Source: Ferruginibacter sp.
GTDB taxonomy: Bacteria > Bacteroidota > Bacteroidia > Chitinophagales > Chitinophagaceae
Assembly: GCA_019638575.1 (NCBI GenBank)
Contig: JAHBTN010000012.1
Coordinates: 52,574 to 116,573 of the forward strand
DNA: 64,000 nucleotides
Direction of reading: 5' to 3'
The notes under the pieces were generated by a model. It saw nothing but the letters and a program-made list of their open reading frames with translations. It ran no database searches and was not told the origin of the DNA. This document shows positions 49,442-64,000 of this stretch, one piece after another; positions within the stretch are counted from its first letter, which is position 1, and the number at the start of each line of letters is the position of its first letter. The translations under genes were made by a program, and so were the position numbers.

Positions 49442-50608
49442 TCATTTCCATTTTATTACACTAAATACAATTTGCGAATAGCCATCTCTCTCGTACAATA
49501 CCCCAATTTTATTTTTTGAAATTTTCACTAAATCGGAATAGGCTGTAAAATCATTTCTTGTATTGTCTTTGCTTTTATCAACTATAATATTTTTGCTCCA
49601 GGTCATTCCATCATCGTAACTGATACGAAGCGTAAGGTTATCCCTGCGTTTTGCATCGGCTGCATTGCAAAATGCAACAATGGCTTTACCGTTTTTTTTG
49701 CCGATGGTTAAAATACTTCCCTGGTTAACAGGGTCAATAAGTGTATTATCAAAATAAGTGGTATCCCAGCTTTGGCCACCATTGCTGCTTATAGAAACTA
49801 TCCTTGCTTTAATATCTCCTTTTTGATTACGACTGTTCATCATCAACCTGTCATTACTAATTTCAGTAGCCATCGATTCATTGCTGCCCGGCAAGTTTAC
49901 AGTTTCGGCAAGATGAAATGTTTTACCATGATCATCGGTATAAAAACCATGCGCTTTATAATCCATAAACCCTGGTTGCGGACCGCCTGCTGAATGGTTG
50001 GCAGCAATAAAAATTCTTCCTTTGTATTTGCCCGAAACAAATTGCATGGCATGCCCCGGCGTGTTGGCATAACTGCGCCAGTCTTCTGTAAAATTATAAG
50101 CTGCATTTACCTGCGGTTGTTTTGGCCTGTGTGTTTGTGTGGTAATGTTTACCGGATTGCTCCATGTAAGCCCGGCATCTGTTGATGTTTTGTACCATAC
50201 TTCCCTGTAGCCTTTTCCTTTTCGTACTTCACCCTCGTGGTTATTGCCTGTATTATAAAACAAAAAAATGCGGCCTTCAGGATAAGCAGGATCATACAAA
50301 TCCACAACCGGAGCAGGGTTGCCGGCCTGCAGCGAATCTGCATCAACAATTGTTTGTAAAGGGCTCCAGGTTTTACCTTTGTCGTTGCTACGTTTCATTA
50401 CAATATTTATATCGCCAAAATCGCCTGCACCATGTACCCTTCCTTCGCAAAAAGTCAACAAGGTTCCATTGGGCAATGATATAATTGCAGGTATGCGGTA
50501 GCTCTTATGCCCTTCGGTACCCGAAACAAATACAGGCACTTTTTGCTGTGCACTAACAAAACCTGCACAACAAACAAAAATCAACAGCGATAATAATTTT
50601 CTTTTCAT
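49442..50608 (-). CDS. nanH: Exo-alpha-sialidase (GH33)
   Basis: GH33 sialidases cleave terminal sialic acid from glycoconjugates, with retention of configuration. The 388-residue exported protein (signal ends VSAQQ) has the arginine motif SYRIPAI (Arg38-Ile39-Pro40) and five Asp-box beta-propeller repeats, such as SNDKGKTWSP, STDAGLTWSN, TDDHGKTFHL, SSNGGQSWDTT and SYDDGMTWSK. It starts with RIP then five boxes, the GH33 layout. Length is shorter than multi-domain sialidases, with no carbohydrate-binding module. It stands after a 432-base gap from the epimerase gene and precedes GH35. Confidence 0.93.
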   Translation of the reverse strand: MKRKLLSLLIFVCCAGFVSAQQKVPVFVSGTEGHKSYRIPAIISLPNGTLLTFCEGRVHGAGDFGDINIVMKRSNDKGKTWSPLQTIVDADSLQAGNPAPVVDLYDPAYPEGRIFLFYNTGNNHEGEVRKGKGYREVWYKTSTDAGLTWSNPVNITTQTHRPKQPQVNAAYNFTEDWRSYANTPGHAMQFVSGKYKGRIFIAANHSAGGPQPGFMDYKAHGFYTDDHGKTFHLAETVNLPGSNESMATEISNDRLMMNSRNQKGDIKARIVSISSNGGQSWDTTYFDNTLIDPVNQGSILTIGKKNGKAIVAFCNAADAKRRDNLTLRISYDDGMTWSKNIIVDKSKDNTRNDFTAYSDLVKISKNKIGVLYERDGYSQIVFSVIKWK

Positions 50609-51040: not shown

Positions 51041-52234
51041 TTAGGAATTATCTTGTTTAAGATATTGGTTCAATATCTGCATACAATACCACTCCTGCCT
51101 TGGTAAATGAAAGGGGCCTTTAAATAAATTTCCTTTTGCGGTTTGGGCCAGGCTTCCGTCACGATGCAGGTATCCAAACCATTCGCCGTTTTCTTTATCA
51201 TGAAAATGTTTATAGGCATATTCATGCACTTGTCTATGCCAGGCTGCATATTTTTCATTGCCTGTTACCAGGTAAGCCAGTAATGTTGCAATGATAGTTT
51301 CATTATGCGGCCACCAGAATTTCATATCCTGCCAGTATTCCTGTACGGGTTTGCCATATACATCCCTGAAATATAAGATGCCGCCATGTTCCTTATCCCA
51401 TCCATGTTCCCACATATAATCAAGCATCCGGCAACCCAAATCAATTAAATGTTTATCGTTGTTGCGGTATTTTGCTTCGTGCAGGATAAACCATACACCT
51501 TCAATAGCATGGCCGGGGTTTAATGTACGGCCATCAATATGGTTAATGATACTGCCATCGGGCGCCACCTGTTCCATCACCGTCCTGATATCGTCTTTTA
51601 CAAAATCAGTTTCTATTTCTTTTATCCATTTTTCAATCCATTCATCGCAACGGCTATCACCAATTGTTTCTCTCAACTGCTGTGCAGTGTTCATCATTAT
51701 CATAGGTACGCCAATGCCTTTTGATGGCCTTACTGCTGTGAATTTTGGTTGTAACAATCCTGCTGTGGTTGCATATCGGATACAATTACCAAAAACAAGA
51801 CGGGCTTTTTCTGCTGCCGATTCATCACCGCTTGCTTTGGCATAAGCGGCTGCGGCAATCACATAAAAAGTTTCAGAAAAAAAATACCTTCTTTTACGTA
51901 AGGGGCTTCCCTGCCTGGTTACATGAAAAAACATTTGTCCATCTTCATCAAAACAATGTTTATTTAAAAAATCATATCCCAGCCTTGCACCCTCAAGCCA
52001 TTCCTGTTTTTTTTGAACAGTGTTATACAAAGTGGCGAGCAGCCAGGTAGCCCTTCCCTGAATCCAAACTGCTTTATCATCATCAATCAGGCTGCCATCA
52101 TCATCTCTCATCAACAAAAAACCGCCATGCTCATAATCGTACGAACGGGGAAACCAAAAAGGCACCGTATCATTCAATAACTGGTTTAAATAAAAATCAT
52201 GCAAAGCCTGTAAATCTGCAATACTGTAATTCAT
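51041..52234 (-). CDS. nanE: AGE-family epimerase (N-acylglucosamine/N-acylmannosamine 2-epimerase)
   Basis: AGE enzymes interconvert N-acetylmannosamine and N-acetylglucosamine. The 397-residue protein has no signal peptide, so it acts in the cytoplasm. It shows the alpha/alpha-barrel signature residues: KAVWIQGRATWLLATLYN, SETFYVIAAAAYAKASGD, NPGHAIEGVWFILHEA with the conserved Arg/His/Glu, and KFWWPHNETIIATLLAYL. In the nanLET arrangement of Bacteroides and Tannerella an epimerase of this type follows sialic-acid lyase; the same job is inferred here. It lies 11 bases downstream of the transporter remnant, in the same transcript. Confidence 0.87.
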   Translation of the reverse strand: MNYSIADLQALHDFYLNQLLNDTVPFWFPRSYDYEHGGFLLMRDDDGSLIDDDKAVWIQGRATWLLATLYNTVQKKQEWLEGARLGYDFLNKHCFDEDGQMFFHVTRQGSPLRKRRYFFSETFYVIAAAAYAKASGDESAAEKARLVFGNCIRYATTAGLLQPKFTAVRPSKGIGVPMIMMNTAQQLRETIGDSRCDEWIEKWIKEIETDFVKDDIRTVMEQVAPDGSIINHIDGRTLNPGHAIEGVWFILHEAKYRNNDKHLIDLGCRMLDYMWEHGWDKEHGGILYFRDVYGKPVQEYWQDMKFWWPHNETIIATLLAYLVTGNEKYAAWHRQVHEYAYKHFHDKENGEWFGYLHRDGSLAQTAKGNLFKGPFHLPRQEWYCMQILNQYLKQDNS

Positions 52235-52245
52235 AATTACACTGG

Positions 52246-53540
52246 TTATTTAATAGCGTCAAAATCGTTTGCCCTTGGGCGTAATACCGAAAGCTGGATG
52301 ATTAAAGCAACTACTACAACTGCCCCCATCATAGCAAAACTTTTACCCAGGTTTCCTTCATCGGTTGATTTACCAAGCAAATCGGTAATAAAAGCACCGG
52401 CAAAAACCCCCACCATATTCATAAGGCCATAAGCCGTAGCCCTGTATTTTGCAGAAACAAACTGGCAAAGTATGGGCATATTGTTTGCATCAAACATACC
52501 ATAACCAAAACCAAAACAGAAAGCGGCGCCAACTACATGAAAAATAGAATGCCCGAAACCTATCAGCAATAAAGCAGGGATGGTTAATGCCAAACCGATG
52601 GCACTTGTATAAATTCTTCCCCGTAAATTTTTCTGCACCCACCTGTCGGATAATATGCCGCCAAAAATTACACCGAGGAAAGAAGAGGCTGCAATAGTAA
52701 TGGTTGACATAGGCCCGGCCTTTGACATATCAATATGTAAATTATCGGCAAACAAAGTAGGCAGCCAGTTTTTTACGCCCCATCCCGGTAAGCTGGGAAT
52801 TGCAAAATAAAAAAGTATCACCCAGAAAGAAATGTTAACCAACAACACCGAAAGCCCTTTTAATAATGGAGGTTTATTATTTTGTATTGACTGCAACTGT
52901 GGCTCACTGTATTTCTTTTTTCTTTTAAAAAGAAAATTAAAACTGCCGCATACACAATACCTATTATTCCAAAAGAATGAAAAGTTTGTTGCCACGAAAA
53001 CGTTGCAGCAATGGTAGCGCCAAACCCACCAATGGCCTGCCCCATGTATAAACCCGTCATGTGAATACCAATTGCAAGCGACCTGGTTTTATCGGTATGG
53101 TAATCGGCTATCAATGCAAGTCCTGCTGGGATATACAATGCTTCGCTAACACCCATCACTGCCCTTAACCAATACAACTGGTTAAATGTGGTGGCATAGC
53201 CCATGGCAAAAGTAACCGCACTCCAAACAAACAAGCTGCCAACAATGAGCCATTTCCTGTTAAGCCTGTCGGCAATAATTCCCGAAACAGGACTCATAAA
53301 ACCATATATCCATAAAAAGATGGCCATGAGGTAACCGAAGTTGGTAGCCGATTGCAGTTCATGAATATCAATCTGCATGGTAGGCTTCATGGTAGAGAGC
53401 ATTTGCCTGTCCATATAATTAAGCAATGCCACCACCCATAACAAGGCTACTACCAGCCAGGGATAAACGCCTACAGGTTTACCGGCAACTGATGCCCCTG
53501 AAATATCTTTTAACTTATCTTCATTCGGCATGACATGCAA
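52246..53540 (-). pseudogene. MFS transporter broken by a one-base frameshift (NanT-like sialic acid importer)
   Basis: Two partly overlapping frames, 52860-53540 and 52246-52995, carry the halves of one 12-helix major facilitator. The first half ends ...LIFFLKEKRNT and continues out of frame; the second half resumes as KKKYSEPQLQ. One extra T in the T6 tract at 52916-52921 (A6 on the coding strand) would fuse the frames into 431 residues with LKEKKKYSEPQ. Helices and motif A-like GIIADRLNRKWL are intact on both sides, so the change looks recent, or it is a sequencing error. Position between lyase/kelch and epimerase points to sialic acid uptake. It abuts the kelch gene with no gap. Confidence 0.85.
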
Positions 53541-54701
53541 TCATTTTATGGTTCCTAATAAAATTTGAGGTGTTCTAACACCTGCTTTTATTTCGCCGCT
53601 TGGTATAAAAATACATTTTCCCCAAAGCACGGCAGTAGTTGTTGCAGCAGAAGGGAAAGGTATATTGGCTAATTTACTCCACTTGTTTGTAACAGTATTG
53701 TACAACAACACTTCGGGTTTAAAACCCGGATGCGCCATTTGCAATTTATTTTTTTGTTCAATCAATGCCTTTTTTTTCAGTTCGTCTTTTTCGTTGGCAA
53801 TGGCCATTATCAAAGTTTCGGTCTTATTGAAAGTCTCGCCTTCATCGCCGCCAAATAATAAGATACTATTTTTACCAACTGCAATACCTGTACCTGCAGC
53901 TTTTGGTGAAGGGATTGGTTTTTCTTCCTGCCATGTACCAGTTGAAAGATTAAATGCATAAACCGAATTATAAAAATCACTTACAGCATTTGTGTTTTTC
54001 TTTCGGCCACCAATAAGGTAAATATTTTGTTGTTTTCCGTTTGATTGAACTGCCAATACAGCGCTTGATACTGCGTAAGGCAGGCTGGGCAATTGTTTCC
54101 ACCCTTTTGCCGTATCATTAAGATTTAATGAAAAAAAATTATCCGATACAGCATTTATTGTTTCTCCTCCGGCAATGTAAATAACATTTTCATAAACTGT
54201 GACCGAAGCATTGGTTAACGGGATTGGTAAGTTGGGTAAATTATTTATTTCAATCTTTTGCAGTTGACTGTTCCATTGCAATAAAAAAGCCTTATTAGAA
54301 ATACCGTTTTCTTTTTCACCACCCAGGTAAGCAATTCCATGTTTTGTACTTACATTGGCGCCGTAAGCTGTAGTAAACGGTAATTTTTGTGAAGATGAAT
54401 TGAGCCAATGAAACTTACCTTTTGTTTTATGTTGCAAAACAAAAATGTCGTTATGGTATTTTTTCTTTCCGCCGTTCCAGGGCAATCCATCGGGAAAGTT
54501 AGCACCACCGGCAACTATCAGTACATCATTAGTAACACCGGTAAGCGGCCCTGCCAATCCAATTGAAACAGTTTCACCATTAGCGGCAGGAAGTTGTGCT
54601 GCTATCTTCCATTTTACAGAAGATATACCCGGTTGCTGTGCTAAGATTTCAGCGTGAACAGACATAAATAAAACAAGTAAGATAATCGTTAAACATTTCA
54701 T
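53541..54701 (-). CDS. nanM: Kelch-repeat cyclically permuted mutarotase (NanM-like)
   Basis: NanM-type mutarotases interconvert alpha- and beta-anomers of sialic acid in the periplasm. The 386-residue exported protein (signal ends ILAQQ) contains a six-bladed kelch propeller with typical GG pairs: LIVAGGANFPDGLPW, IAYLGGEKENG, VIYIAGGETIN, IYLIGGRKKN, ILLFGGDEGE and FIPSGEIKAGVRTPQI. It lies 19 bases downstream of the lyase gene and immediately upstream of the transporter, as expected for import of beta-Neu5Ac. The family name reflects circular permutation relative to E. coli NanM. Confidence 0.88.
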   Translation of the reverse strand: MKCLTIILLVLFMSVHAEILAQQPGISSVKWKIAAQLPAANGETVSIGLAGPLTGVTNDVLIVAGGANFPDGLPWNGGKKKYHNDIFVLQHKTKGKFHWLNSSSQKLPFTTAYGANVSTKHGIAYLGGEKENGISNKAFLLQWNSQLQKIEINNLPNLPIPLTNASVTVYENVIYIAGGETINAVSDNFFSLNLNDTAKGWKQLPSLPYAVSSAVLAVQSNGKQQNIYLIGGRKKNTNAVSDFYNSVYAFNLSTGTWQEEKPIPSPKAAGTGIAVGKNSILLFGGDEGETFNKTETLIMAIANEKDELKKKALIEQKNKLQMAHPGFKPEVLLYNTVTNKWSKLANIPFPSAATTTAVLWGKCIFIPSGEIKAGVRTPQILLGTIK

Positions 54702-54720
54702 TTGGTAATATTGCTTTAAC

Positions 54721-55650
54721 CTATGTTGGCATTACAGATTTAAAGCTATTGAAATTAATCTGCTCTGTATCTTTTTTAAATGCAGCAAATTGTTCGGCTG
54801 TCATATTTTTTACCGGCAGGCGAAACTCACCACAATCAAGGCCAATTAGTTTCATATAAGCCTTACCGGTAGCGATGCCCCCGTATTTTCCAAGCAGGCG
54901 TATCATATCAATTGATAGCTCCTGCAATTGTTGGGCTTTTTGTAACTGCCCTTTTTCAAAAGCATCAATCAAATCATGATACAGCGGAGCAGCATAATTG
55001 TAAGTGCTGCCCACAGCGCCTTTTGAGCCTATTGCCAATGCCGGCAACATATTTTCATCACGGCCCCAAAGCATATCATATTTGCCATTGGCATATAAAG
55101 TGCAGGAAAGAAAATCCATAAAATCTTCATGCGTATATTTTATGCCGGCAAAATTTTCAACCTTTCCATTTACGGCTTTCAGCAAATCAATCATTGAAAA
55201 ATTTACGCCGGTTAATACAGGAATATGATAATAATAGAATGGCATACCGGGTACCACCGATGCAATTTCGTAACAGGCTTGTGCAAGCATGTTAACATCG
55301 GCAGGTTTAAAATAAAAAGGCGCAGTAAATGAAATTGCATCCATGCCTGCTTCTTTTGCATATAGCGCCAGTTCTTTACAATCATTAATACTTGTTCCGC
55401 CAAGCAAAGGCATTACTGTAAAAGCATCATCATTTTTTGAACAGGCAGCCCATGCATCCATCATTTTCTTTTTTTCATCGGCTGTCATAGAAACACCTTC
55501 GCCGGTAGAACCGCAGATGAAAGCGCCGTTCACCTTATTAGCTTTAAGCATTTTGTAATATGCCGGAATGATGTTTACATTAAGCGAACCATCGCTGTGC
55601 ATGGGTGTAAAAGGAGCCGCTATCAGTCCTTGTAAATGTTTTTTACTCAT
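54721..55650 (-). CDS. nanA: N-acetylneuraminate lyase (dihydrodipicolinate synthase family)
   Basis: NanA cleaves N-acetylneuraminate to N-acetylmannosamine and pyruvate through a Schiff base. The 309-residue barrel protein has GSTGE (47-51) for substrate carboxylate binding, Tyr141 in YYYHIP, and Schiff-base Lys171 in NFAGIKYTHEDF. Dihydrodipicolinate synthase is the alternative, but the neighbourhood (epimerase, kelch mutarotase, transporter, sialidase) decides for a sialic-acid lyase of the NanL type. No signal peptide, so cytoplasmic. It lies downstream of the susCD pair, separated by an intrinsic terminator. Confidence 0.9.
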   Translation of the reverse strand: MSKKHLQGLIAAPFTPMHSDGSLNVNIIPAYYKMLKANKVNGAFICGSTGEGVSMTADEKKKMMDAWAACSKNDDAFTVMPLLGGTSINDCKELALYAKEAGMDAISFTAPFYFKPADVNMLAQACYEIASVVPGMPFYYYHIPVLTGVNFSMIDLLKAVNGKVENFAGIKYTHEDFMDFLSCTLYANGKYDMLWGRDENMLPALAIGSKGAVGSTYNYAAPLYHDLIDAFEKGQLQKAQQLQELSIDMIRLLGKYGGIATGKAYMKLIGLDCGEFRLPVKNMTAEQFAAFKKDTEQINFNSFKSVMPT

Positions 55651-55680
55651 CTTCTATCATTTGATTTTAAACAAATTTAA

Positions 55681-55709
55681 AAAAAAACCGGGGGCAAGAC
55701 TCCCCCGGT
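55681..55709 (-). terminator. Intrinsic terminator between susD and nanA
   Basis: ACCGGGGG (55687-55694) pairs perfectly with CCCCCGGT (55702-55709) around a 7-base loop. On the minus strand the hairpin comes 49 bases after the susD stop and is followed by a run of U from 55687 down to 55681. It is GC-rich in an AT-rich genome, so it should work well. It lies 30 bases before the nanA ATG, leaving little room for a separate promoter. Confidence 0.88.
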
Positions 55710-55757
55710 GTAAAACGACTGCTTGCTTATGAGAAAAACTGAGTTAAATAAATTTTA

Positions 55758-57284
55758 TTAGTATCCTGGCGTTTGTGTTAACAAAGGGTCATTAGCTATC
55801 ATAGCTGCAGAAATTGGTAACAAAAATTTAGCCTGAGAAGTTGGTGAAAGATAAGCCGGGTTGATATTGGCATACACATAACTGTCACCCGCTCTTCTTA
55901 AAGCTAACCAATGTTTTCCTTCACCGATAAATTCTCGCAGATTTTCTGCAAGAATAGCATCCATATTTTGAGTGATAGAGCCATTTACAAATACAGGAGC
56001 TCCAGCACCATAAGCTCTAGCCCTGATAGCTGTAATTTCTGCAGTTGGGTCTTCACCTAATTTTGTTTTTGCTTCTGCTAACAGTAACAGCACATCTGCA
56101 AACCTGTAAATAGGATAATCGTTGTTATAAATTTGAGATGTACCTGCTGATGTTCCTATATATTTTGTTAGCATGATTCCTCTTATCGCATAAGGTGCAG
56201 AATTATTATACATTATTTTAAATGTATTGCTTATCCTTTGATCGGCCGGTGCTGAAGTAAGTGTTGAAATTAAAGGAAGGCTAATTCCCACCCTGTTTGC
56301 TCCATTTACGTAAGGATAAACAGTTGCTATTGTTGGAGCAGTTGATTGTGTAAAAGATAAAGTAGCCGCCTGTATTGAATTGACCCTGAAATTGCCAAAA
56401 ATTCCATTTTCGCTTTGTTGTATCTCGTAATTAACAGCAAAAATAATTTCCTTGTTATTCACTTTTTTAGTAGGATCAAATATATCCGCATAATTTGCCT
56501 GCAAGTCTAACAATGCACTCTGCATGTTTTTAGCTTCGGTAAGTGCTGCTTTAGCAATATTAAAATCTGCAGCACCACCACCCATATGTGTGCCCGACCA
56601 TATATATACATCTCCTTTTAAAATAAGCGAAGCTAACCTGTTCCAATATACTCTTTTTCCTGATGGTATTGCATTTGAAGGTCCAAATAGTGTTAAAGAT
56701 TGTTCAATATCGCTTTTCACTTGAGCCAAAACTGAATCAGCGCTTGATCTGTGTTTGTAAGTTTCAGCAGCATTGTTAATTGTTTCTACAGGTTCGGTAT
56801 TCAACGGTACACCTCCCCATGTTTGCACCATCAAATAATATACATAAGCCCTAAGCCCATATACTTCTGCTAAAATCCTGTCTTTTTCAGCCTGGGGCAA
56901 TGTTGTTTGAGGAATTATCTTTATTACATTATTCATGTTGTAAATAAGATTATAAAAGCCGCCCCAGTTTGAAAATGGTACATTGGTAGCACTTATATTG
57001 TGTGTATATAAGTTTTGTAGCCCACCATCAGCCGATTCAGAGAATAACCCATCGGCCCAAATTTCAGACCTCATTTCTCCTAACTGAAAAATTGTACTGT
57101 TATATGCTCTAAACCGTGAATAAATTCCATAATAAAGGGTTCGGGCCGCATTCGGATCTTTTAATGCCTGTTCTTTACTGATTGCATCCTGTGGAATAAC
57201 ATCATCCAGTTCTTTTGAACAAGAAACCAGCCCCAACATTGCTATGAAGCTTATGGCGATGATAAAAAATATTTTCTTTTTCAT
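55758..57284 (-). CDS. SusD/RagB-family surface glycan-binding lipoprotein
   Basis: SusD proteins sit on the outer surface and deliver glycans to the SusC channel. The 508-residue protein has a lipoprotein signal with lipobox LVSC (Cys22) followed by SKELDDVIPQ, typical of SusD. TPR-like helical segments include AEKDRILAEVYGLRAYVYYLMVQTWGGVPLNTEPV, a hallmark of the family. It ends with the normal ...ILPISAAMIANDPLLTQTPGY tail. It is encoded 28 bases after susC and followed by an intrinsic terminator. The bound ligand is inferred to be a sialylated or sulfated glycan from the locus content. Confidence 0.95.
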   Translation of the reverse strand: MKKKIFFIIAISFIAMLGLVSCSKELDDVIPQDAISKEQALKDPNAARTLYYGIYSRFRAYNSTIFQLGEMRSEIWADGLFSESADGGLQNLYTHNISATNVPFSNWGGFYNLIYNMNNVIKIIPQTTLPQAEKDRILAEVYGLRAYVYYLMVQTWGGVPLNTEPVETINNAAETYKHRSSADSVLAQVKSDIEQSLTLFGPSNAIPSGKRVYWNRLASLILKGDVYIWSGTHMGGGAADFNIAKAALTEAKNMQSALLDLQANYADIFDPTKKVNNKEIIFAVNYEIQQSENGIFGNFRVNSIQAATLSFTQSTAPTIATVYPYVNGANRVGISLPLISTLTSAPADQRISNTFKIMYNNSAPYAIRGIMLTKYIGTSAGTSQIYNNDYPIYRFADVLLLLAEAKTKLGEDPTAEITAIRARAYGAGAPVFVNGSITQNMDAILAENLREFIGEGKHWLALRRAGDSYVYANINPAYLSPTSQAKFLLPISAAMIANDPLLTQTPGY

Positions 57285-57312
57285 TGTAATTATTTTTATT
57301 GATTTGAATGAA

Positions 57313-60300
57313 TTATAATGCTAACCTAACGCCAAAGGTTAACCGTTTTGGTATTGGGAATTTTCCCTGGTCCATACCTCCTACTTCGGGGAAATTGCCA
57401 CTGTAGCCTGAAAAATAAACCAGGTTACTGCCGGTAATATTTACACTTAATCCTTTAATCTTATTGGCAAGATATTTTCCAATAATTTGAGACGACAAAT
57501 CATAAGAAAGTGTCAATTCCCTTAACATTACATAATCTCCTTTCTCCCACATATTAGCCGGGGGGTTATTTCCGCTTGCATCTGTTGCATAGTTCCTGCC
57601 CTGGTTTGCCCAATAAAATCTTGGAAGTGTACCGCCTGTATTAGTTGGCGACCATGAATTTAATACCTCAGTAGTTTGGTTTTGAGAACCCTGTACCTGG
57701 CTAAGGCCACGTAACACTTCATTATTTAAAATAACAAACCCAAAAGCATAATCAAATCCTGCATATAAACTAAGCCCTTTGAATGAACTAGCAAGGTAGA
57801 AACCACCGGTGTGCTGAGGGGTGGTGCGGCCAACATATACAAACTGCTTCGAATCAATTGTATCATTATTATATACCTGGTGCCACTGAGCATCTCCTAA
57901 TTGTTTTATTTTTTTATTATTATATGGTAGAAACGAATTCCAAACATTGGCATTGGCAGTAATTTGTGACTGGTCGGTATAAATACCATCCCATTTTGGT
58001 GCCCATACTTCGTCTAATCCAATACGTTGTCCTTCTACCAAACCGCCTACATATTTTTGTTGGCCCGGGTTATTGGGATCCCATACAAAAAAACCACTTG
58101 TTCTGTTTCCGGGTAATGCATTGTAAGGAAGCTTTTTTGCATAACTCTTTACATGAAAATAGTTCACACCAACCTCCAGGTTAAATCCATCGGCACTTTT
58201 AGATTTTATAATTTTTCCAATTGCTGCAATTTCAATACCCCTGTTTTGCAATTGGCCAAGATTAGTATTATAACTGGTAAACCCGGTTTGTGCAGAAATT
58301 CCTAAACCTGCAATCTTATCATATACATTACGAATGAAATAGTCAACATTAACTGTTACTCTTTCATCTAGTAAACCTAAATCCAAACCAAAGTTTAAAG
58401 TATTTGTACGCTCCCATCTTACATCAGGATTAATATAAGAAGCGGCATAAGTTCCTCCATAACCATTATAAGTTCCGGCATTATTATACACTTGTGCAGT
58501 TGCATATAAACCAAGTGAATTTACATTACCATTAACACCGTAGCTAAACCTGGGCTTAATGCTGCTTATATATTTATTTACAACAGAGCCTTTAAAGAAA
58601 TTTTCGTTATGTAAGTTCCAGCCTACAGATACACCCGGGAAGGTTCCAAAATAATTTCCTTTTTTAAGCCTGCTCGATCCATCCACACGTACAATACCAG
58701 TTAATAAATATCTATCCATGTATGTATAATTAACCCTTGCAATACCTGAAGAAATCCTTTCCCATGCATTAAAATTAGAAGATGCACCGGCTGGATTGAT
58801 AATTGTGGTTCCCTGTACACTAGGCGATGTAGAAGCTACTAACCAGGGAATAAGATCGGTAGGTGCACCTCTTGAAAAACCAGAGTTCACATAGCTTTTA
58901 TAATCATAAAATTCACCACCGGCCAATGCTGTAATGTTGTGCCCTTTAAACCTTTTTTCAAACTGTACAAAAGCATTGGTAGTGTATTGTATAATTTTTT
59001 GGTTACTGAAACTTGCAGCCCTGCTGGTATTGATGGCACCACCATTACCTTGCTGGTAAGCTTTAGTAAAAAAATCATTAGCGGTATATTGATAATAACC
59101 CGAGCCGCTTGCTAACAATTTTAAATAAGGAAGAATTCTATATTCCAGGTTAATACCACCCAAAAACCGTTGTTGATTAGTACTGTTATCTGTAAGGTTA
59201 CTCCAGTAATTGGGGTTACCTAATGTTACATCATTAGGGCCGGGTAATTCTACTCCTGATGTATCATTCACATATCTCACTGTTGGGGCAACACCTACAA
59301 AACGTTGCATTAGCCCACCTGATCCGCCACCTTCAGGATCAACATTATTAAACCCGCCATAAGGTAATGATTGTTTAACATTATAAGCGGCAATATTAGT
59401 AGTAACCTTCAAATTTTTTCCTACATTTAATCCGCCATTGAAATTCATATTGATTCGCTTTAATGATGAGCCAATCAGCATACCATCATCTTTTACAGTA
59501 CCAAGTGATAATGAATATGAGCCCTGTTCATTAGCGCCTGAAAAATTTAAATTATGTTCAAGTGTATTTACCTGGCGCAGTAACATATCTTCCCTCTCTC
59601 TTGCACTCAAATCGGTAAATAGTATACTGTCCATCAAGTTTACATTGAAAGGATTGGGATCTATTAATAATTTCCATCTTGGGTCATTCAATAAATGCCT
59701 GTTTGTACTACTTACCAATTGAGTAGTATATAAGCCTTCGGCCGATCTCCATCCGCTATTTACTGCCCAACCCCATGCACCTGTTAATTGGTTACGGTCA
59801 TTATTCATAGCGCCTGTATTATTATCTAATGAATCTCCTCTGAATCTCGACTGGATACCAATCCTGTTCATACGTATATAATTAGCTGCATCTAAATAAT
59901 CAGATGCATTGCGCCTAATATAGTTTGTAGTATAACTAAAATTATAAACAACTTGTGTTTTGCCTCTTTTACCTTTTTTTGTGGTAACCAATACTACGCC
60001 ATTTGCAGCTCTTGCTCCATAAATAGCTGTAGTAGCAGCATCTTTCAATAAATCCATACTGGCAATATCATTTACATCAATACCATATAAAGAAGGTACA
60101 ATAACTCCATCTACAATAAACAATGGAGTACCGCCACCACCAAATTCAGTACCACCTCTAAATGATATTGAAGGTGTGGTACCAGGTTGGCCGGTTCGTT
60201 GCTGCACCCTTAAACCCGGAGTGTTACCTTGTAATACAGTGGCTGCATTTGTAGTTGGTGTATGTTCAAATGCTCGGCTATTAACCGAAGAAACTGCACC

Positions 60301-60669
60301 TGTAACTTCTTTTCTTTTTTGTGTACCGTAACCCACCACTACCACTTCATCCAATTTGCTGGCAACAGCCTTTAACACTACATCATAAGTGGATGCACTG
60401 CCAATTTTGATGGTTTGAGTACCATAACCAATAAAAGAAAAAATAAGTGATTCACCTTCCGAAGCATCAATGCTGTATGAACCGTCTGCATCGGTTTGTG
60501 TGCCCGCAGTTTTTCCTTTAATGGTGATGTTTACACCCGATAATGGTTTATTGTCTTCTTCTGAAGAAACCTTACCGGAAATTTTTTTTGATTGCGCTTG
60601 TGTTGTTGAAAAAAGAAAAAAAGCAACAACAGTTAATAAGCTTTTTAGATAGTTTAGTTTTGATAGCAT
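57313..60669 (-). CDS. SusC/RagA-family TonB-linked outer membrane glycan transporter
   Basis: SusC is a TonB-dependent barrel that imports glycan fragments across the outer membrane. I start at MLSKLNYLKS (60669), giving 1118 residues; ATGs 27 bases upstream are possible. A signal peptide ends TTQAQ, followed by a carboxypeptidase-regulatory-like domain (ISGKVSSEEDNKPLSGVNITIKG), the SusC motif LDEVVVVGYGTQKR, a plug (LLKDAATTAIYGARAANGVVLVTT) and a large beta-barrel. It is first in the susC-susD unit. Its promoter region overlaps two inverted repeats, suggesting control by the divergent GntR-family gene. Confidence 0.95.
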   Translation of the reverse strand: MLSKLNYLKSLLTVVAFFLFSTTQAQSKKISGKVSSEEDNKPLSGVNITIKGKTAGTQTDADGSYSIDASEGESLIFSFIGYGTQTIKIGSASTYDVVLKAVASKLDEVVVVGYGTQKRKEVTGAVSSVNSRAFEHTPTTNAATVLQGNTPGLRVQQRTGQPGTTPSISFRGGTEFGGGGTPLFIVDGVIVPSLYGIDVNDIASMDLLKDAATTAIYGARAANGVVLVTTKKGKRGKTQVVYNFSYTTNYIRRNASDYLDAANYIRMNRIGIQSRFRGDSLDNNTGAMNNDRNQLTGAWGWAVNSGWRSAEGLYTTQLVSSTNRHLLNDPRWKLLIDPNPFNVNLMDSILFTDLSAREREDMLLRQVNTLEHNLNFSGANEQGSYSLSLGTVKDDGMLIGSSLKRINMNFNGGLNVGKNLKVTTNIAAYNVKQSLPYGGFNNVDPEGGGSGGLMQRFVGVAPTVRYVNDTSGVELPGPNDVTLGNPNYWSNLTDNSTNQQRFLGGINLEYRILPYLKLLASGSGYYQYTANDFFTKAYQQGNGGAINTSRAASFSNQKIIQYTTNAFVQFEKRFKGHNITALAGGEFYDYKSYVNSGFSRGAPTDLIPWLVASTSPSVQGTTIINPAGASSNFNAWERISSGIARVNYTYMDRYLLTGIVRVDGSSRLKKGNYFGTFPGVSVGWNLHNENFFKGSVVNKYISSIKPRFSYGVNGNVNSLGLYATAQVYNNAGTYNGYGGTYAASYINPDVRWERTNTLNFGLDLGLLDERVTVNVDYFIRNVYDKIAGLGISAQTGFTSYNTNLGQLQNRGIEIAAIGKIIKSKSADGFNLEVGVNYFHVKSYAKKLPYNALPGNRTSGFFVWDPNNPGQQKYVGGLVEGQRIGLDEVWAPKWDGIYTDQSQITANANVWNSFLPYNNKKIKQLGDAQWHQVYNNDTIDSKQFVYVGRTTPQHTGGFYLASSFKGLSLYAGFDYAFGFVILNNEVLRGLSQVQGSQNQTTEVLNSWSPTNTGGTLPRFYWANQGRNYATDASGNNPPANMWEKGDYVMLRELTLSYDLSSQIIGKYLANKIKGLSVNITGSNLVYFSGYSGNFPEVGGMDQGKFPIPKRLTFGVRLAL

Positions 60670-60679
60670 AGCATGTGTT

Positions 60680-60702
60680 TTTATTATGTATGACATAATA
60701 AA
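60680..60702. promoter_or_regulatory. 23-bp perfect palindrome: candidate GntR-family operator
   Basis: TTTATTATGT-ATG-ACATAATAAA is a perfect inverted repeat with 10-base arms and a 3-base spacer. The centre GT-ATG-AC fits the GT-N3-AC core of GntR/FadR-type operators. It begins 11 bases upstream of the susC start chosen here and lies next to a GntR gene. It overlaps the candidate susC promoter, so binding would repress. Confidence 0.65.
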
Positions 60703-60706
60703 GATA
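60699..60706 (-). promoter_or_regulatory. Candidate -7 element of susC
   Basis: The minus strand reads TATCTTTA, one base from TAnnTTTG. A TTTG (minus strand, 60728-60731) lies 21 bases upstream as a possible -33 element. The transcription start would fall in the middle of the palindrome. Confidence 0.4.
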
Positions 60707-60722
60707 AAATTAATTATCTTTA
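60699..60722. promoter_or_regulatory. Second perfect inverted repeat in the susC/gntR region
   Basis: TAAAGATAA (60699-60707) and TTATCTTTA (60714-60722) are perfect 9-base arms with a 6-base spacer. The left arm overlaps the first palindrome by 4 bases and contains the -7 element. It might bind a second dimer or another regulator, or be an AT-rich coincidence. Confidence 0.45.
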
Positions 60723-60825
60723 ATCACCAAATTTTTTTTGCCATTTTTTTAACTCACTGATTTTAAGCAAAAAACAAAGGACGATGTAAAATCTAATGCC
60801 TATTTTTGAACAAGCACTATTAAAT

Positions 60826-61539
60826 ATGACTAACACAATTATAAATGAAAGCCTAAAATCAATCGACACCAGTTCATTAGTTGATAAAGTAGAAGATGGG
60901 CTGGTAAAGCTGTTACAGGAAAAGAAACTGAAAGTGGGCGACAGCATCCCCAAAGAAGTAGAATTGGCCGAAACACTTGGCGTAAGCCGTACCGTAATCA
61001 GGGAAGCTTTATTAAGGCTTAGGATGATGGGACTTATTGAATCGAAGAAAAAGAAAGGAGCGGTAATTACAAGCCCCGACCTCTTTGGCATATTGGGAAA
61101 AAGTATGAATCCGCATATACTTAGCCAGGAAACCCTGAAAGGGATTTTTGAAATTAGGCTTGTATTGGAAATAGGGATGGCAGATTTTTTATTTCACCGT
61201 GTAACAAAAGCAGATATTGAAGAGTTGAAAGAGATTGTTAGCAATGAACCGCCTGTTGCACAATTTCATTTATTTAATATAGACCATGAAATTGCTTTTC
61301 ATGGCAAACTGTACGAAATAACCGGTAACGAAACGCTTAAAAAATTTCAAAGCCTGCTGCTGCCCGTTTTTGATTATGTACACAACAGTGGTTTATTAAA
61401 GCAGCAGTCAAAACTTAAAACCTTTGTATCGCATGGCGGGCTTGTAGAAATTCTTGAAAAAGGCACTCCCGAAGAATTCAGGAATGGTATGCGTAACCAC
61501 CTGGAAAATCATTTTGTAAGGCTTTTTGAATCGGAATAG
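60826..61539 (+). CDS. FadR-subfamily GntR transcriptional regulator (NanR-like)
   Basis: The protein has an N-terminal winged helix-turn-helix (SLVDKVEDGLVKLLQEKKLKVGD, then ELAETLGVSRTVIREALLRLRMMGLI) and a C-terminal FCD effector domain with the metal/ligand histidines in IDHEIAFH, SHGGLVEIL and HLENHF. FadR-type regulators of this build often bind sugar acids; NanR binds sialic acid. I take the ATG at 60826 (237 residues) because a TATTTTTG element at 60801-60808 lies between it and an upstream ATG at 60796, which would give 247 residues. The gene diverges from susC, the natural target. Confidence 0.88.
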   Translation: MTNTIINESLKSIDTSSLVDKVEDGLVKLLQEKKLKVGDSIPKEVELAETLGVSRTVIREALLRLRMMGLIESKKKKGAVITSPDLFGILGKSMNPHILSQETLKGIFEIRLVLEIGMADFLFHRVTKADIEELKEIVSNEPPVAQFHLFNIDHEIAFHGKLYEITGNETLKKFQSLLLPVFDYVHNSGLLKQQSKLKTFVSHGGLVEILEKGTPEEFRNGMRNHLENHFVRLFESE

Positions 61540-61653
61540 ACTTAACTTTTTTAAACAATAAAGTTCAGGATTGAATTTTTAAATATTCGTAAGAGAATTT
61601 ATTTACCAGATTTTAAACTTTACAGTTAACAATACAATAAAAAATCATGCAAT

Positions 61654-61661
61654 TATATTTG
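61654..61661 (+). promoter_or_regulatory. Candidate -7 element of the ClC gene
   Basis: TATATTTG is a perfect TAnnTTTG match 23 bases before the proposed TTG start at 61685. No clear -33 element is seen. Confidence 0.45.
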
Positions 61662-61684
61662 CATTGGCGTAAACAAATAATGTT

Positions 61685-63493
61685 TTGCATGTAAAATCAA
61701 CCCATAAATTTTTAACCAGGTGGCTTGTCATTATTAATGACTGGCGTAAACGAAAAATTTCTAAAACTAATTTTCTCATCATAGTTGCTGCTGTAGTTGG
61801 GGTTTTGGGTGGTGTTGCTTCTTCTTTATTAAAAAAACTTACGCATTATATTGCCAGTTTTCTACAGAACGATTTTCATTGGCAATACAAATATTATCTC
61901 TATCTTTTTTTTCCGCTTATTGGTATATTTTTAACCATCCTCTATATACGTATTTTTATTCGCAGGCATAAATTTCAGCATGGTATTCCTGCTATACTCT
62001 ACAACATTTCCCGAAACTCAAGTAAACTTGATTTTCATAACATTTACAGCCAGGTAATAACAAGTGCATTCACTGTAGGGTTGGGTGGTTCTGCTGGCCT
62101 TGAAGCTCCGGCTGTTGCCAGTGGGTCTGCCATTGGTTCTAATATAGGCAGGTTATTTGGGCTTAACTACCGTGAAACCACACTGCTACTTGCTTGTGGT
62201 GCGGCTGCCGGTATTGCAGGCGCATTCAACAGTCCCATTGCAGGAATGATTTTTGCCATAGAAGTAATACTTCCCGAATTTTCGATACCGGCAGTTATTC
62301 CGTTATTATTGGCTTCAGCCCTTGCTTCAGTGATATCAAAACTCCTATACAGCGAACCATTGTTTGCATTGGTAACAAAAGACTGGATTGTAGAAGCATT
62401 TTGGTATTATATAGCGCTGGGTGTTTTAATTGGCTTGTATTCGGTTTTTTACAGTAAACTAAACAGCAAAATTTTTAAGTTGTTTGATAAAATAAAAAAC
62501 CGCTATAACAAAGCATGGATTGGAGGAATTTCTTTAGGTATATTAATCGCATTACTACCGGCGCTGTATGGCGAAGGATATATCACTATTCAAAAACTTT
62601 TAAATGGCGATTATACTTCTTTACTTGCTAACAGCCTTTTTGGCCAATACCAAAATATAGCCTGGGCGCTGGTTTTATTTGCTGCCCTGTCGATGGCAGG
62701 AAAAACATTTGCCAGTGTTATCACCATGGCAAGCGGTGGCAACGGTGGCATGTTTGGCCCCACAGTAGTTGTGGGTGGTTTATTTGGTTTTGTTTTTGCT
62801 TTTGGACTTAATCAAACCGGGATAGTACATTTGAATATCACTAATTTTATCATTGCAGGTATGGCTGCATCGGTAAGCGGTGTAATGCATGCCCCATTAA
62901 CAGGTGTTTTTCTTGCAGCAGAAATTACGGGTGGTTATGTTTTGATGGTGCCGCTTATGATTGTTTCAGCACTCTCCTATTTTATCAACAAAGCCATTTT
63001 AAAGTACTCTATCTATACCAGGGGACTAGCTGAACAAGGCCATTTATTATCGCATGAAAATAAAGACAACAGTGTATTAAGAAGCATTAAATTAAAATAT
63101 CTTTTAGAAAAAGATTTTGTAATTCTTAAGCCGGATGATACACCTAAAGAGCGCAGCAATGATATCATTCATACCAAAAGAAATATTTTCCCGGTTGTAG
63201 ATGACGAAGGTATTTTAACCGGACTTATTGATAGCGATAATTTGCTTGAACTATTAGTAAGTAATAATGAAGAAGACAGTAAACGATTGATTAAAGACAT
63301 TGCACAACCGGCACAAAAAGTTATTCATCTTAATACCCCAATGACCGACGTTATGCAAATTATGGATAGCCAGGACCTGCGTATTTTACCCGTTGTAGAT
63401 AATAATAACAAATACCTTGGCTTTGTAACCAAAAACAGCATATTTATAAAGTACCGTACCATGCTTAAACGCCAGGCCGATTATATGCAATGA
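61685..63493 (+). CDS. ClC-type chloride channel/antiporter with CBS pair
   Basis: ClC proteins move Cl- (or F-) across the membrane as channels or H+ antiporters. The 602-residue protein has about ten hydrophobic segments, ClC motif 2 as GSAGLEAPAVASGS (with the gating Glu in place of GREGP), and GGNGGMFGPTVVVGG as the GxFxP motif. C-terminal CBS domains (about 470-595) include FPVVDDEGILTGLIDSDNLLELL and ILPVVDNNNKYLGFVTKNSIF. The only in-frame start before the conserved region is TTG at 61685; ATGs nearby are in another frame or followed by a stop. That is unusual in this phylum, and an N-terminal frameshift is possible. Confidence 0.88.
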   Translation: MHVKSTHKFLTRWLVIINDWRKRKISKTNFLIIVAAVVGVLGGVASSLLKKLTHYIASFLQNDFHWQYKYYLYLFFPLIGIFLTILYIRIFIRRHKFQHGIPAILYNISRNSSKLDFHNIYSQVITSAFTVGLGGSAGLEAPAVASGSAIGSNIGRLFGLNYRETTLLLACGAAAGIAGAFNSPIAGMIFAIEVILPEFSIPAVIPLLLASALASVISKLLYSEPLFALVTKDWIVEAFWYYIALGVLIGLYSVFYSKLNSKIFKLFDKIKNRYNKAWIGGISLGILIALLPALYGEGYITIQKLLNGDYTSLLANSLFGQYQNIAWALVLFAALSMAGKTFASVITMASGGNGGMFGPTVVVGGLFGFVFAFGLNQTGIVHLNITNFIIAGMAASVSGVMHAPLTGVFLAAEITGGYVLMVPLMIVSALSYFINKAILKYSIYTRGLAEQGHLLSHENKDNSVLRSIKLKYLLEKDFVILKPDDTPKERSNDIIHTKRNIFPVVDDEGILTGLIDSDNLLELLVSNNEEDSKRLIKDIAQPAQKVIHLNTPMTDVMQIMDSQDLRILPVVDNNNKYLGFVTKNSIFIKYRTMLKRQADYMQ

Positions 63494-63553
63494 TTTCTTT
63501 TGCACTAACATCAACTTTAAAACAAAAGACTATCTTTTTAAATAAAACAATAC

Positions 63554-63916
63554 CTATTCGGGTAACACAATAAAATTCTGTATATCACTAATAACTATTT
63601 GAGATGTGTTTTTATATTTGGAAACAGTACCTTTTACAATTACTTTTTTCCCATCAAGCAAGTACTGTGGATTTAGTGCCGTATAGGCTTTATTATAAAA
63701 AACAACTGTTAATGGAGTTTTTGGATAAGGTTTATCTAAACTAAGTATCAAAATGCTTTTCCCGTCTTTTTCAATAAGCCTGGAGCCTGCAACAATTGCT
63801 TTTACAATAACTTCCCTGTTTACCATTGATTTTGCTTTCCTGGCTTTTATTGTATCCCCCTGAGCAAACGAACCAATAGCAGTTATTAAAATTAAAAATG
63901 TGAAAATACTTTTCAT
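63554..63916 (-). CDS. Small secreted OB-fold-like protein
   Basis: I start at MKSIFTFLILITAIGSFAQ (63916), a signal peptide, giving 120 residues. An upstream extension to 63949 adds 11 residues and is less likely. The mature part (VNREVIVKAIVAGSRLIEKDGKSILIL, VVFYNKAY, GKKVIVKGTVSKYKNTSQIVISDI) has the strand pattern of an OB-fold, as in small periplasmic nucleic-acid- or oligosaccharide-binding-like proteins. Function is unknown. The gene converges on the ClC gene with a 60-base gap. Confidence 0.75.
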   Translation of the reverse strand: MKSIFTFLILITAIGSFAQGDTIKARKAKSMVNREVIVKAIVAGSRLIEKDGKSILILSLDKPYPKTPLTVVFYNKAYTALNPQYLLDGKKVIVKGTVSKYKNTSQIVISDIQNFIVLPE

Positions 63917-64000
63917 TATAGCTGTAGCAGGTGATAAACTTTTGTACAATGGTAATAAAAAACTGCAAAAAATGCAGGTATATTATATTGTTGGAGATAG

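Follow-up and report, generated by a model that had tools for sequence, protein, structure and literature searches.

The locus analyzed here raises the question of what a perfect palindrome is doing in front of a susC gene of Ferruginibacter sp., directly next to a divergent regulator gene. To what extent can its role be read from the locus and its relatives? The analysis covers a stretch of 64,000 nucleotides, here referred to as the window. The relevant features, given with coordinates and strand, are as follows.

49442..50608, minus strand: sialidase-like BNR protein, GH33-like (Pfam BNR_2 9.4e-31)
51041..52234, minus strand: N-acylglucosamine 2-epimerase, AGE (Pfam 1.5e-44)
52246..53540, minus strand: MFS transporter, in the window two overlapping frames (249 and 226 aa)
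53541..54701, minus strand: nanM-like Kelch mutarotase/epimerase (Pfam NANM 5.2e-46)
54721..55650, minus strand: nanA-like N-acetylneuraminate lyase (Pfam DHDPS 1.7e-44; PRK04147 3.7e-44, below cut-off)
55758..57284, minus strand: susD, NanU-like (NCBIfam NanU 4.6e-89, below the model cut-off)
57313..60669, minus strand: susC, first gene of the operon, likely start ATG 60669 (TIGR04056 4.1e-197)
60680..60702, no strand: full 23-bp palindrome as first described, its outer two base pairs not conserved
60682..60700, no strand: core operator TATTATGTATGACATAATA with GT-N3-AC, predicted site of the GntR/FCD repressor (by conservation, at least 14 of 16 arm positions)
60699..60706, minus strand: -7 box TATCTTTA of the susC promoter, TAnnTTTG class, sharing 60699-60700 with the core operator
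60699..60722, no strand: second dyad, TAAAGATAA (60699-60707) and TTATCTTTA (60714-60722), arms 9/9, loop 6 nt
60728..60731, minus strand: -33-like element TTTG, 21 nt from the -7 box
60826..61539, plus strand: NanR-like GntR/FCD regulator, divergent from susC (Pfam GntR 3.8e-15, FCD 2.7e-14)

The palindrome and the neighboring regulator

The palindrome consists of TTTATTATGT (60680-60689) and ACATAATAAA (60693-60702) around a central ATG. It is perfect over 23 bp, with 10/10 complementary arm positions and the core GT-ATG-AC, and is overlapped by the second dyad over 4 nt. Both structures had been described in a previous reading of the window (here referred to as the sequence-only reading) and were found at the same positions. 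When the window was shuffled 30 times with its dinucleotide content kept, a mean of 0.17 dyads with a 3-nt loop and perfect 10-base arms was obtained per window, compared to 1 observed. The corresponding values were 1.2 and 3 for 10-base arms with loops of 0-6 nt, and 0.47 and 3 for 9-base arms with a 6-nt loop. Within the 156-bp stretch 60670-60825 (20,000 shuffles) P was 0.0027 for the first and 0.007 for the second dyad type. Both dyads by themselves are thus only mildly unusual, and it is their conservation that decides the case.

The adjacent gene had been taken for a FadR-type GntR gene. This was borne out, since the protein combines a GntR winged helix with an FCD domain, both with Pfam matches above cut-off. 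Several orthologs begin with a methionine at M11 of the listed ORF 60796-61539, and the regulator therefore probably starts at 60826. The best NCBIfam match was the NanR model NF003011 (2.8e-26, 92.6 bits), which lies below the curated cut-off of 260 bits. The structure predicted from an alignment of 31 sequences (mean pLDDT 83.2) had a FadR/FCD fold. Among the 50 Foldseek matches listed, the top TM-score by query (0.56) belonged to 6on4_A, the E. coli NanR with sialic acid, at 19% identity.

In E. coli NanR, Arg128 and the zinc ligands Asp172, His176, His222 and His244 have been described (PMC8012715). R111, E155, H159, H203 and H225 of the regulator align to these five residues and were invariant in the 31 sequences. 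The conserved residues fit an acidic ligand that would be held through a metal, and are non-specific for sialic acid. An arginine and metal-site residues of the NanR kind are common among FCD proteins.

Conservation of the predicted operator and its position on the susC promoter

The relatives studied were the best 80 of 145 confirmed candidate loci, giving 81 loci together with the window. By their titles they include Chitinophagaceae, Pedobacter, Emticicia and Flectobacillus. For the scoring, each 19-mer of the region that precedes the regulator was compared with the 16 arm positions. In 79 of the 81 loci a 19-bp core, TATTATGT-N3-ACATAATA, precedes the ortholog of the GntR/FCD gene, with 14/16 arm matches in 8, 15/16 in 31 and 16/16 in 40 of them. 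By comparison, only 1 of 810 shuffled upstream regions (ten per region) attained 14 matches. The two remaining loci were left out of the logo and the pair counts (n = 79): in L064 the contig begins 254 bp before the gene match, and in L099 (Pedobacter frigoris) a 15/16 site is located 44 bp from the gene match, beyond the region scored. In L103, which carries two perfect sites, the gntR-proximal one entered the scoring. A divergent susC adjoined the site in 77/79 loci; in the other two, for which none was found, the site precedes nanA (L042) or is located near AGE/BNR genes (L110).

The operator columns carried 1.72 bits of information each, compared to 0.39 and 0.27 in the flanks (79 loci). 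Columns 5, 7, 8 and 12-17 were invariant in the 79 aligned sites. These include G7, T8, A12 and C13, so that GT and AC are placed 3 nt apart within the palindrome of the predicted operator in 79/79 sites; the GT-N3-AC core had been recognized before as the operator pattern of the family. All eight symmetric pairs were retained in 43/79 loci, seven in 31 and six in 5. Both outer pairs of the 23-mer were retained in only 4/79 loci, which puts the conserved operator at about 19 bp. Thus, the first dyad passes the test of conservation in related loci on which the sequence-only reading had made itself dependent, but of the proposed 10-base arms only the inner 19 bp of the palindrome stand.

That reading had also suggested a search for further copies of the palindrome in the genome; besides the own site, none was present in the genome of the window at 0-1 mismatch (19-mer). 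With up to 3 mismatches, 83 places per strand were found compared to 106 for the reversed control, so a wider regulon in this genome is not above chance. One exact copy of TTATGT-N3-ACATAA in the own genome (L002) was discounted, as it lies inside a 230-aa frame that is ClpP-like by eye.

In flavobacterial sigma-A promoters the -7 box has the sequence TAnnTTTG and is located at -12 to -5 (PMC9723704). Read on the strand of susC, 95% of the 79 loci have a T at column -6, and 95% have an A at column -5. The eight letters from column -6 read TAnnTTTA in 43/79 and TAnnTTTG in 12/79 loci. TTTG was present 18-21 nt upstream of the box in 47/79 loci; 24/79 had no TTTG 12-26 nt from the box, several of them with TTGG or CTTG instead. 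The final two letters of the box are operator columns 1-2, which agrees with the overlap already noted in the sequence-only reading. Column 2 was A or G in 74/79 loci. In 15 loci it was G while the mirror column was unchanged, as if the promoter pulled this column away from symmetry. From the spacing of the -7 box the susC transcription start is predicted near 60694, at operator position 7. Owing to this position and the overlap with the box, a bound dimer would block the box as well as the start.

A longer susC frame begins within the palindrome at ATG 60696. The counterpart in L037 stops after seven codons (by eye), and for this reason ATG 60669 is preferred as the start of susC.

A further copy containing the GT-N3-AC core and matching 12 or more of the 16 arm positions (consensus TATTAAGTAATACATAATA) was located between the first site and the regulator in 47/79 loci. 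In 45 of these 47 it was centered 9-16 nt before the first in-frame ATG found by script. Shuffles gave about 8/79 with at least 12 matches, the core not being demanded. The window and L035, a Ferruginibacter MAG with a GntR protein 97% identical to that of the window, lacked this copy (best 11 and 12 matches, core missing), and autorepression there would therefore need the shared site.

The second dyad was different. At the spacing of the window, 9/9 pairs were present in the window only, 8 in two loci (one of them L035), 7 in two and six or less in 74 (n = 79). When any position within the 34 nt upstream was allowed, the best match reached 9 in 1, 8 in 4 and 7 in 23 of the 79 loci, compared to 0.2, 2.5 and 15.2 expected from shuffled flanks. 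As its right arm is the -7 box, this half is kept. The second dyad looks like a small excess in AT-rich DNA, probably a fortuitous pairing of the -7 box with a chance partner. The proposal that it is an operator as well was rejected, since it is already imperfect in a relative with 93% identity and unconserved beyond it. In G202 (L221:1017-1059), two operator-like sites with 14 and 13 of 16 matches were located 24 bp apart upstream of susC.

Linked genes and distribution of the site

Within the best 80 of 145 loci, the divergent side carried SusC in 76, SusD in 73, NanA in 73, NanM in 69 and the N-terminal half of the MFS transporter in 62. All five were arranged in the order of the window in 61/80. 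On the same side, AGE was present in 26 and the GH33-like gene in 44 of the 80 loci, many of which end about 10 kb out. By gene position, the site is thus linked to nanA, nanM, AGE, sialidase-like genes and SusCD, which bears on a putative control of sialic-acid genes.

The window and L035 shared 93% DNA identity over 51053-55761 and 60318-64000. Of the SusCD block in between (55762-60317), a lone 192-bp piece aligned, at 70%. Among 73 loci with a long SusC match, the identity of SusC to the window was bimodal, reaching at least 50% in 22 loci and remaining under 45% in 51; the mean GntR identity was nearly equal in both classes (78% and 77%). The MFS region 52246-53540 is a single open frame of 410 codons in L035, and the split in the window reflects either a disrupted gene or an error of the assembly.

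A scan of 294 genomes from the family to which the window belongs found the exact 17-mer TTATGT-N3-ACATAATA in 57. It was present in 39/46 genomes with a regulator match of at least 53% identity and in 18/248 others (Fisher p 1.6e-27, a value that overstates independence because the genomes are mutually related). The reversed 17-mer occurred in 41/294 genomes (11/46 with regulator, 30/248 others); since this control is so common, single 17-mer matches without a telling neighbor mean little. Gene matches of at least 66% identity had the 17-mer 70-334 bp upstream in 34/40 cases. The remaining six comprised G162, G250, G202 and G008 with 14-15/16 sites, G077 (by length, the contig of L065) with a 15/16 site and G213, a 63-residue fragment. 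Of eight regulator matches with 53-65% identity, one had the 17-mer upstream and another (G116) a 15-mer. In G077:C157, some 100 bp separate a 15-mer site and a distant GntR gene.

Additionally, exact copies were found where the regulator gene does not adjoin. They precede susC-susD-nanA in L157, susC-susD in L158 and L159, and nanA-nanM-MFS-acetylesterase in L155. Further exact copies precede a GH20 hexosaminidase (L156) and a sialidase-like gene (L161); the copy of L167 precedes GH16 genes and is a poor fit to sialic acid. Another 16 distal copies comprised 11 within reading frames, which were discounted, and 5 intergenic ones. Of the latter, those of L205, L206 and L207 adjoin genes resembling the sialidase or nan genes of the window (27-41%, tblastn), and those of L208 and L212 had no adjoining sialic-acid gene. 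The analysis covered 51 of the 64 exact 17-mer sites, all but those of G010, G047, G103, G143, G156, G176, G190, G207, G209, G265, G288 and one each of G071 and G150.

A distant group of regulators with 40-52% identity was found near TTATGT-N3-ACATAA sites with other centers, beside SusCD (L162-L165, L168). Genomes of this kind also carried copies by BNR, NANM and DHDPS genes (L165, L169, L170), with L160 (fucosidase) and L172 as misfits. The paralogous GntR/FCD group was present at L205 and L206, too, with SusCD or sialidase-like genes close by. In the helix-turn-helix, five aligned paralogs (L162-L165, L168) had SRN where the main group had SRT. Tentatively, and with rather more doubt than confidence, we propose that two paralogous GntR/FCD repressor groups (about 55-100% and 40-52% identical to that of the window) run one sialoglycan regulon of environmental Bacteroidota. 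They would have the operator TTATGT-N3-ACATAA in common, with a center of mostly ATG/CAT in the one and AGT/AGA/ACT in the other, and operator and promoter would stay the same when the SusCD cassette is replaced as a whole. If this is true, a single constant switch controls a variety of uptake pairs.

Proposed regulation and comparison with known systems

The conservation of the operator, its overlap with the promoter and its linkage to the regulator and the pathway genes are apparent from the compared sequences. The repressor encoded by the adjacent gene very probably docks on the 19-bp palindrome. The model that we propose with considerable confidence is that the palindrome is bound by a NanR-like repressor of the FadR type, which keeps the susC promoter closed and leaves the DNA in the presence of sialic acid or one of its derivatives; DNA binding, repression, ligand and the single transcript are predictions from sequence. 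A repressor dimer would sit on TATTATGT-N3-ACATAATA with one winged helix per GT/AC half-site. There it would lie across the last part of the -7 box and the start predicted at about 60694 and thereby close the promoter to RNA polymerase. Repression by operator occlusion, as suggested in the sequence-only reading, is the likely mode given a site over the -7 box. Binding of sialic acid, or of a product like ManNAc, to the FCD domain would then free the repressor from the DNA, and susC-susD-nanA-nanM-MFS-AGE-sialidase would be switched on. A ligand of the sialic-acid type is plausible from the pathway and from the residues common to E. coli NanR.

Other explanations were considered. Both dyads are perfect in the window and could form a composite operator for two side-by-side repressor dimers, for which the paired sites of G202 (L221) offer a parallel; furthermore, 5/79 loci including the window and L035 keep at least 7/9 pairs at the spacing of the window, an uncontrolled count. 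We regard this as very unlikely, since the second dyad has no GT-N3-AC core, drops to 8/9 in L035 and has best matches over the 79 loci close to those of shuffled flanks. Some GntR proteins are activators, and the regulator might act on the same site as an activator or dual regulator. This is even less probable, because in most loci a protein that occupies the -7 box together with the predicted start should stand in the way of the polymerase.

A site for a Crp-type global regulator that activates sugar genes would have similar TATGT...ACATA half-sites, as in the motif wwwTATGTTnTAnAACATAwww proposed for Bacteroides (PMC3878776). We give this less credit again: GT and AC are 6 nt apart in TATGTTnTAnAACATA but 3 nt here, and up to 30 regulated genes in that system (PMC3878776) compare with a single own-genome copy at 0-1 mismatch. 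In addition, the presence of the site tracks the GntR gene, and its location over the -7 box and the start suits a repressor. The chance level of about 0.17-1.2 dyads of this size per window and the AT-rich stretch would favor a fortuitous dyad or a structured RNA element of the susC leader. Such an origin is next to negligible, since the sequence itself is conserved beyond pairing in 79/81 loci, GT and AC are invariant in 79/79, and the predicted start inside the palindrome would leave its left arm untranscribed.

A repressor acting on the 19-bp palindrome can be compared to several known systems. Bifidobacterium breve NanR, from another phylum, has been described as a GntR-type repressor of sialic-acid utilization that responds to N-acetylneuraminate (Egan et al. 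2015). Bacteroides NanR (BT0433) belongs to the same phylum and is predicted to control genes for sialic acid and GlcNAc, but as a member of the ROK family it is unrelated to the GntR/FCD regulator (PMC3878776). Our literature search, which extended to titles and abstract openings with most subscription papers outside its reach, revealed no report of the operator or of any regulator of sialic-acid genes of the GntR type in Bacteroidota. The operator described here is a precise, testable prediction of how sialic-acid genes may be controlled in Chitinophagaceae, Pedobacter and relatives, for which the alternative in this literature is the ROK-type Bacteroides NanR. It can also be used as a search pattern for further sialoglycan genes.

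In operators of the FadR subfamily, a spacing of 3 nt between GT and AC is typical (PMC4494728). The site resembles those of FadR, LldR, PdhR and GlcC in its GT-N3-AC core within an AT-rich palindrome. It differs from the consensus TKGT/ACMA of the 2015 survey by its TATGT/ACATA boxes; this survey analyzed 0 FadR-subfamily proteins from Bacteroidetes (PMC4494728).

E. coli NanR is of the same GntR/FCD subfamily and serves the same pathway. Its operator consists of GGTATA direct repeats (PMC8012715), whereas the conserved site is a symmetric palindrome without such repeats. Furthermore, the metal ligand Asp is Glu here, and the regulator is linked to a SusCD operon in Bacteroidota. The regulator probably works like NanR, although neither the curated cut-off nor the type of operator makes it a NanR ortholog. 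Taken together, this suggests a FadR-subfamily regulator of sialic-acid genes that, unlike E. coli NanR, uses an ordinary palindrome.
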